Below, piece by piece: positions 5,804 through 5,993 of a DNA stretch of 6,350 nt. The position numbers were made by a program, and so were the translations under genes. This DNA is from Lachnospiraceae bacterium (GTDB lineage: Bacteria; Bacillota_A; Clostridia; Lachnospirales; Lachnospiraceae). Each line of letters starts with the position of its first letter. Within the stretch, counting starts at the first letter, position 1. The stretch spans positions 1 to 6,350 of the forward strand of contig JAGDBR010000243.1 of the NCBI GenBank assembly GCA_017958935.1, read 5' to 3'. Below the pieces are notes generated by a model. It was not told the DNA's origin. It was given only the letters and a program-made list of their open reading frames with translations, and searched no databases.

Positions 5804-5832
5804 TTGACAAAAGGCATGAAAAGGACTATTCT
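5804..5832 (+). promoter_or_regulatory. Sigma-A-type promoter of pyrG
   Basis: A perfect -35 box TTGACA (5804-5809) is followed, after exactly 17 bases, by TATTCT (5827-5832), which matches four of six positions of the -10 consensus. Transcription would be expected to start around 5838-5841, in TATG just before a run of six T. The surrounding DNA is clearly more AT-rich than the genes. The result would be an untranslated leader of about 155 bases. Confidence 0.85.
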
Positions 5833-5852
5833 TTTTCTATGTTTTTTGCAAA

Positions 5853-5880
5853 CGGAGGACTGACTCCGCCGGATGCGGAG
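5853..5880 (+). promoter_or_regulatory. Two mutually exclusive hairpins at the 5' end of the pyrG leader
   Basis: CGGAG (5853-5857) can pair with CTCCG (5864-5868) over a six-base loop. Alternatively CTCCGC (5864-5869) can pair with GCGGAG (5875-5880) over a five-base loop. The middle segment can join only one of these. The loop region of the second hairpin also holds CGGATG (5870-5875), which is repeated in the 3' arm of the downstream terminator. These are direct base-pairing observations; a regulatory role is inferred. Confidence 0.5.
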
Positions 5881-5919
5881 AGGTCAAAAACAAACAGACA
5901 TCATCGGAAAGCAGAAATA

Positions 5920-5940
5920 GATGAACGACAGGCGTTCATC
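5920..5940 (+). promoter_or_regulatory. Candidate antiterminator hairpin in the pyrG leader
   Basis: GATGAACG (5920-5927) pairs perfectly with CGTTCATC (5933-5940) over the five-base loop ACAGG. Bases 5933-5940 are also the core of the terminator 5' arm, so this hairpin and the terminator are mutually exclusive. The terminator is the longer structure, so this form would need help or kinetic advantage to win. Confidence 0.6.
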
Positions 5941-5981
5941 CGTAGGGAATTCACCCCTCGGATGGGCGCCTTCTTCATTTT
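5931..5981 (+). terminator. Intrinsic terminator (attenuator) in the pyrG leader
   Basis: Bases 5931-5942 pair with 5959-5970 over 12 continuous positions (two are G-T). After a single bulged T5943, AGGG (5944-5947) pairs with CCCT (5955-5958) around a seven-base loop. The T-rich tract TTCTTCATTTT (5971-5981) follows at once. It lies downstream of the pyrG promoter and directly before the pyrG ribosome binding site, so transcripts of pyrG must read through it. It could also stop any read-through from araD, which lacks a clear terminator of its own. Confidence 0.75.
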
Positions 5982-5988
5982 CGGAGGG
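5982..5988 (+). promoter_or_regulatory. pyrG ribosome binding site
   Basis: CGGAGGG is a near-perfect Shine-Dalgarno sequence, five bases before the ATG at 5994. It begins directly after the attenuator T-tract. The surrounding 12 bases (5982-5993) repeat 5853-5864 with one change. Confidence 0.8.
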
Positions 5989-5993
5989 CTGAC

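Follow-up and report, generated by a model that had tools for sequence, protein, structure and literature searches.

A terminator and a competing hairpin in the pyrG leader of a Lachnospiraceae bacterium: possible ANTAR-type, nitrogen-responsive antitermination of CTP synthase

Background

What controls the CTP synthase gene, pyrG, that begins near the end of a 6,350-nucleotide stretch of Lachnospiraceae bacterium DNA (the whole stretch analysed, hereafter the window)? An earlier note, made from the letters alone, had described a terminator and a competing hairpin in the leader of this gene and had concluded that pyrG is attenuated through a sensor other than the G insertion of Bacillus subtilis, such as stalled translation, a protein, a small molecule or slippage on a run of T. 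We followed up this proposal computationally, in the window and in other Clostridia.

Control of nitrogen genes by ANTAR proteins is known, and its model is a dual-hairpin antiterminator. The ANTAR protein EutV of E. faecalis binds hexaloops whose first base is A and whose fourth is G (A1/G4), according to the mutation tests described in the text of Ramesh et al. 2012 (PMC3369931). The minimal ANTAR site was later redefined as one hexaloop (Walshe et al. 2022, PMC8934654), in an account whose passages on the mechanism hold that antitermination needs contact with each hexaloop of the pair and leave the role of a single hexaloop for further work.

Results

Gene content and kinship of the window

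Read 5' to 3', the window encodes the C-terminal part of a Mur ligase, a histidyl-tRNA synthetase (HisRS), a class II (D/K/N) tRNA synthetase, an FGGY kinase and a class II aldolase; CTP synthase is represented by its first 119 codons. Its HisRS is 89% identical to an NCBI Lachnospiraceae bacterium protein, which points to an uncultured Lachnospiraceae-like lineage; HisRS proteins were found at 88-91% identity to that of the window, and one at 100%. Queried with the 89% protein (P0004), 299 Lachnospiraceae genomes gave a best identity of about 62% among the 24 genomes listed, and at a cut-off of E 1e-157 a search of 392 genomes from the order gave no match. At the DNA level, the leader and upstream genes of the window had no blastn match in 80 pyrG loci, which had been fetched by PyrG as the best among 587 confirmed stretches.

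The PyrG N-termini listed for Lachnospiraceae genomes are 79 to 98% identical to that of the window, with many in each of the ranges 91-98% and 79-85%. These two ranges of protein identity suggest two pyrG lineages or transfer.

Two mutually exclusive structures in the pyrG leader

A single promoter-like site was listed between 5000 and 6350, against a mean of 0.3 in shuffled sequences, and it is the strong promoter picked out in the earlier note (Table 1). Folding of the leader from 5838 to 5993, a check that the note had asked for, gave -57.9 kcal/mol (z -4.55), and 0 of 200 shuffles came equally low. The 16-pair terminator that it had drawn is likewise borne out, with -27.7 kcal/mol as compared with a mean of -12.5 (sd 2.5, lowest -23.6) for the best 40-nt window of 200 shuffles. 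A simple terminator scan of the window did not list this stem on the + strand and placed its sole site on the - strand, a miss that we attribute to the interruption of the U-rich tail.

Table 1. Features predicted in and around the pyrG leader of the window
Feature	Position	Strand	Evidence or remark
Sigma-70-type promoter, TTGACA-17-TATTCT	5804..5832	+	10/12 matches; -10 ends 87 nt 5' of the hairpin arm
pyrG leader RNA	5839..5993	+	predicted start, placed near 5839 by the -10
Possible hairpin CGGAG-GACTGA-CTCCG near the predicted 5' end	5853..5868	+	excludes the 5864-5880 hairpin
Hairpin CTCCGC-CGGAT-GCGGAG	5864..5880	+	in folds 5839-5919 and 5839-5945; absent from the 5839-5970 fold
Competing (putative antiterminator) hairpin	5920..5940	+	GATGAAC-GACAGGC-GTTCATC (7 pairs) or GATGAACG-ACAGG-CGTTCATC (8 pairs)
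Predicted intrinsic terminator stem, 16 pairs	5931..5970	+	fold; 5931-5940 common to the competing hairpin
Interrupted U-rich tail TTCTTCATTTTC	5971..5982	+	read from the sequence
GGAGGG ribosome binding site of pyrG	5983..5988	+	by eye; 3' of the terminator tail
pyrG, N-terminal part of CTP synthase	5994..6350	+	PF06418, E 4.9e-68; runs off the window

The 8-bp hairpin said to share an arm with the terminator also stood up to scrutiny. In its 8-pair form all pairs are Watson-Crick (-9.1 kcal/mol), and when only the leader upstream of the terminator is shuffled, the chance of at least 8 such pairs is P = 0.0027, or 0.016 when G-U pairs are admitted. In folds of the growing transcript, taken in 4-nt steps, the hairpin belongs to the lowest-energy state at each length tested from 5938 to 5966, and at a transcript end of 5970 the terminator has displaced it. 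The modelling shows two mutually exclusive predicted structures ahead of the window pyrG, a terminator and a competing hairpin; by overlapping and, in the predicted folds, excluding an intrinsic terminator, the latter takes the position of the P2 hairpin of ANTAR targets, and it is the positional counterpart of the single hexaloop hairpin of relatives.

A second hexaloop hairpin (P1) was not found 5-12 nt upstream in the window leader, and this candidate was rejected after folding and a scan for upstream P1 hairpins; the possible hairpin at 5853-5868 is separated from the competing hairpin by 51 nt, more than a classical ANTAR P1 would allow. A promoter adjoining the competing hairpin was also rejected, the hexamer at the place of its -10 (5907-5912) reading GAAAGC by eye. 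An Rfam scan of the window returned no family at gathering score and relaxed limits gave only a sub-threshold viroid motif, ruling out a known Rfam element in the leader.

Three further features of the leader were observed. Near the predicted 5' end, CGGAGGACTGAC (5853-5864) is a one-mismatch repeat of CGGAGGGCTGAC (5982-5993), the ribosome-binding region of pyrG; a small frame, MRRGQKQTDIIGKQK, spans 5873-5920 with 15 codons and a stop codon that touches the 5' arm of the 5920-5940 hairpin; and a second open frame runs from ATG 5839 to a TGA overlapping the pyrG start.

A single-hexaloop element in other pyrG leaders

Several pyrG leaders share a design in which the 3' arm of a hairpin, usually with the loop AAAGGC, opens the 5' arm of a terminator. 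The arms vary yet stay complementary (TGAAC/GTTCA, AAGAC/GTCTT, CGGAC/GTCCG, GAAGC/GCTTC). Covariation in an alignment of 12 pyrG leaders, the window included, was 0.578 for the hairpin stem (shuffle mean 0.292) and 0.372 for the terminator stem (shuffle mean 0.239); at the two outermost positions of the hairpin stem, 5 and 8 of the 12 rows do not pair. A DNA operator instead of an RNA structure was rejected, as the arms covary while the centre is fixed.

We defined a strict element as a C-G-closed A1/G4 hexaloop on a stem of at least 5 pairs that overlaps a terminator. With the window left out, 23 of 152 distinct pyrG leaders carry it and 129 lack it; among the controls it turned up in 15 of 3040 shuffled sequences, on 3 of 152 reverse strands and in 2 of 858 slices. 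Leaders whose PyrG is at least 90% identical to that of the window carry it in 20 of 102 cases, those below 90% in 3 of 50. The earlier note had called for alignment of both hairpins in relatives, and the arrangement that it described, a terminator with an overlapping hairpin, does recur in these 23 leaders, whereas the loop and the promoter distance of the window differ.

The loop letters were counted in 58 promoter-abutting, C-G-closed elements from a scan blind to those letters, which gave A1 in 58/58, G4 in 58/58 and, at position 3, A in 40, G in 10, U in 6 and C in 2. Since many of these loci had been fetched with R1, a covariance model built from 12 pyrG leaders (window among them) whose seeds have such loops, we made a second count, restricted to loci for which the PyrG protein had been the only query and allowing any loop and closing pair: 14 of 16 have A1, G4 and C-G closure with a varying position 3, and the two exceptions (L071, L079) look like chance. 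In 58 of 84 elements (the 85th had too little upstream sequence) 4-12 nt separate the end of a promoter -10 from the 5' arm, a spacing seen in 37 of 1680 shuffles. Because the -10 abuts the hairpin, the hairpin is predicted to begin the transcript, which leaves no space for a P1; P1-like A1/G4 hairpins upstream of the elements showed no excess (8/84, against 7.8% of shuffles).

Some leaders depart from this layout or add to it. On the minus strand of L149, a second A1/G4 hexaloop (GATGC-AACGAG-GCATC) lies 2 nt upstream of the element at 1456, near the classical dual form. Tandem elements, each with its own terminator, occur at L086 minus 1277-1375, L005:1840-1947, L092:1445-1527 and L135 minus 1389-1487 (locus coordinates). 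Within the 24 nt that precede the hairpin, runs of at least 5 T are in weak excess in the element-bearing pyrG leaders (6/23, against 9.7% of shuffles and 7/67 other elements), and 5-6 T stand directly before the hairpin in L226, L206, L236, L238, L243 and L255.

The element before nitrogen and purine genes

Model R1 was searched against 391 Clostridia genomes under stricter filters, and among the matches listed 154 genomes had one at E <= 0.1. Of 30 loci taken from this search, some held a generic terminator or a real element in reverse complement; many others lay upstream of nitrogen genes. A scan of the loci that ignored loop letters gave 132 candidate hexaloop hairpins, some of them plainly chance, with AAAGGC in 49; as elements were chosen with stems of at least 5 pairs in these scans, their pairing percentage is partly built in.

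Downstream of 85 C-G-closed A1/G4 elements we found pyrG in 21 cases, a gene of the GltB type in 19, GSIII in 18 and Amt in 8, the pyrG share being inflated because many loci had been fetched by pyrG. The rest comprised GdhA (3), PurC (3), amino-acid permease (2), eight single others, PurF and the GlnP-like and GlnQ-like transporters among them, and 3 elements without a 90-codon frame. The families were checked on representatives, which matched GSIII_N and GATase_2 (the GltB label is our reading of the latter); the amt, GdhA, purC and purF representatives passed their cut-offs, and the GlnP-like and GlnQ-like transporters fell below theirs. The single-hexaloop element thus stands before both pyrG and nitrogen genes in other Clostridia.

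Purine genes are in the target set as well, with elements before purF, purC and an adenylosuccinate-lyase-like gene (L120, L127, L129, L113). A further element, L142:1433-1454, lies upstream of a gene for a RelA/SpoT-domain protein at 1496-2482.

ANTAR genes and their distance from pyrG

ANTAR genes above the Pfam cut-off were found in 193 of 391 Clostridia genomes, three weaker matches being excluded. They are present in 61 of the 66 genomes with an R1 match at E <= 3e-4, as against 132 of the 325 others (Fisher p 6e-16, a test that ignores kinship). G593 (L127) and G561 (L147) have good-looking elements yet no ANTAR match; G604 (L093), one of the five ANTAR-less exceptions, has no element of the single-hexaloop kind. 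A test on 36 genomes, in which L020 was scored by eye as carrying the pyrG element and L046, scored as lacking it, passes the later strict scan, was not discriminating: ANTAR was present in 11 of 12 genomes with the element and in 19 of 24 taken as without.

Six of the 80 pyrG loci, themselves the best of 587, have an ANTAR gene, confirmed by Pfam, upstream of pyrG with 14-218 nt between the two (L003, L009, L049, L050, L052, L058), and the element is also present in L003 and L049; the 72 loci scanned had given 7 with an ANTAR-like frame, including a weak match downstream of pyrG in L069 that was excluded, and L009 came from outside the 72. In 24 Lachnospiraceae genomes chosen by HisRS (E 1e-145), ANTAR is encoded in 20, and in at least 6 (G071, G245, G328, G241, G062, G089) it is no more than 10 kb away from pyrG, a lower bound, pyrG having been matched in 20 of the 24.

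Elsewhere pyrG sits beside nitrogen genes (clusters L300, L301, L302 and L304). The L301 cluster holds a gltB-type gene, Amt, GSIII and ANTAR, and that of L304 holds GSIII and ANTAR; in the intergenic region L300:3503-3677 a gltB-type gene and pyrG diverge, with one element each. No element lies directly in front of the pyrG of L301, L303 or L304.

One such ANTAR protein aligns with the putative antiterminator 1s8n (which we take to be Rv1626), with AmiR and with the entry of EutV. Where 1s8n reads DLVIMDVKM, the consensus of 37 ANTAR proteins is 'Dlvi.n.pL'; the Asp, presumably the residue expected to be phosphorylated, is mostly absent, and a signal other than phosphorylation would therefore be at work.

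The window copy and the standard element

The strict scan for a C-G-closed A1/G4 hexaloop overlapping a terminator found no element in the window. Depending on whether its hairpin is drawn with 7 pairs or with 8, the loop has 7 nt (GACAGGC) or 5 nt and is no hexaloop; in C-GACAGGC-G, A5928 and G5931 are correctly spaced, but an extra G5927 precedes the A. The -10 is 87 nt from the hairpin, as opposed to 4-12 nt in 58 of 84 elements. We also built a core model, R2, without the window, from 74 of 77 distinct cores, three having been dropped for a terminator energy above -16 and one doubtful-looking row (L126:2426-2447:-) having been kept. R2 ranked 5919-5941 first in the window, but at 10.6 bits (E 0.34), and of the 16 matches listed for 20 other loci, 7 scored at least 10.7 bits (the highest 14.2), not counting the real element L012:357-378. 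That element (21.4 bits by R2) is a standard one that follows TTGACA/TATAAT about 1.6 kb upstream of pyrG and precedes another gene. Judged by its sequence, the window copy is divergent and not a clean member of the standard element class; its loop, promoter distance and low R2 score led us not to file it as an ANTAR target.

Discussion

We lean, with modest confidence, towards ANTAR-type, nitrogen-responsive antitermination in the window pyrG leader, which would work like an ANTAR target. The 16-pair terminator would end the pyrG transcript by default. Upon shortage of nitrogen or glutamine, an ANTAR-domain antiterminator would bind the 5920-5940 hairpin, recognising A and G at the AxxG spacing in its loop; the hairpin so held would occupy the 5' arm of the terminator, and transcription would proceed into pyrG. 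We infer here that ANTAR proteins bind the single-hexaloop elements, that nitrogen status is the signal and acts in this direction, and that the divergent window copy still acts through the ANTAR mechanism. Among the sensors listed in the earlier note, comparison of sequences favours a protein; the note's view that control works by something other than G slippage has gained support, and the nitrogen link is one that it did not foresee. As the matching switch of relatives fits a known class of RNA switches operated by a nitrogen-control protein, CTP production may, by analogy, be tied to nitrogen supply and not to CTP.

The most serious competitor, though an unlikely one, is a true attenuator with another trigger: in this lineage a leader peptide, a small ligand or a different protein would have taken the place of ANTAR. 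Both the divergent loop and the extension of 80 nt, by which the window differs from the standard element, would suit it, as would the additional hairpins at 5853-5880 and the short frame at 5873-5920; against these stand a position, arms and terminator overlap that match ANTAR-type pyrG leaders, and the lack of any Rfam family at gathering score. In its leader-peptide variant, translation would run from ATG 5873 to the TAG at 5918-5920 that adjoins the hairpin, from a GGAGG whose spacing of 14 nt to the ATG is poor. Decay of the hairpin, with a terminator that constitutively lowers pyrG transcription and no regulation, is improbable: the R2 score of only 10.6 bits and the interrupted U tail are what it would lead one to expect, but an 8-pair Watson-Crick overlap would seldom arise by chance (P as given above), and the folds of the growing transcript retain the hairpin until the terminator is nearly complete.

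Two explanations place the trigger at the 5' end of the transcript. Slippage on the run of six T, or a switch of start site, could alter the leader; we have kept such an effect of the start sequence as a rival because the T-run begins three nucleotides past the inferred start and a comparable run precedes the hairpin in 6 of the 23 element-bearing pyrG leaders. Its chance is slim nonetheless, as the other 17 lack such a run and the 5' end of the window transcript lies 80 nt from the competing hairpin, with which it is unpaired in the fold to 5970. Scarcely credible is the classical attenuation of B. subtilis by reiterative transcription at low CTP, for all that gene and leader-terminator logic are the same. 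The window has neither a GGGC start nor a CTCCC-type run in the terminator 5' arm, just as the earlier note had remarked. When 157 leaders were scanned for a start at GGG(C/T), 10 loci were listed, among which GGGC goes with a downstream CTCCC-type run in L073, L076, L077 and L079 and with TTTCCCC in L075, all of them from records labelled as Bacilli; with this signature in Bacilli loci and not in the window, we rejected the G-slippage model for the latter.

Beyond the window, we find the case evenly poised for a widespread nitrogen regulon of Clostridia, in which single-hexaloop antiterminators at the transcript start would be served by ANTAR proteins mostly without the expected Asp, CTP synthase would belong to the regulon, and the window lineage would carry a derived form with a 7-nt loop away from the 5' end. 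If this is true, nucleotide synthesis would be gated by nitrogen supply. The leaders constitute a large natural set of single-hexaloop candidates, and with them CTP synthase, purC and purF become additional candidate ANTAR targets that would join nucleotide synthesis to nitrogen supply.

We do not claim that an ANTAR-pyrG link is previously unpublished. A search of the open-access literature, supplements not included, for ANTAR together with pyrG returned titles on ParB or Acinetobacter only, and pyrG is absent from the main text of PMC3369931. Narunsky et al. 2024 (PMC11109978, Supplementary Figure S5) report a 'pyrG motif', also named after pyrG, as an example of a hard-to-predict mechanism; we compare it with the present element by name. 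As summarised in PMC4448216, the attenuator of pyrG in B. subtilis (Meng, Turnbough and Switzer 2004) likewise has a leader terminator blocked by alternative pairing; its trigger is G added at the start under pyrimidine starvation, unlike the window with its lack of a GGGC start and C/U run. Antiterminators of the BglG/SacY type, as outlined in PMC3369931, also rely on a protein-stabilised single hairpin that excludes a terminator, but use a 29-30 nt RAT site in place of a single-hexaloop element. Among the closest known systems are the ANTAR targets (eutP/eutG of EutV, nasF of NasR, amiE of AmiR) as the passages on them in PMC3369931 and PMC8934654 portray them. They share with the window a small hairpin over the terminator 5' arm, and with the elements of its relatives an A1/G4 hexaloop, a C-G closing pair, nitrogen-gene targets and ANTAR genes nearby. 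The known targets have two hexaloop hairpins, with a linker of 5-12 nt in the eut genes of E. faecalis, whereas the relatives have one, mostly at the predicted start of the transcript, and the window hairpin has a loop of 7 nt.
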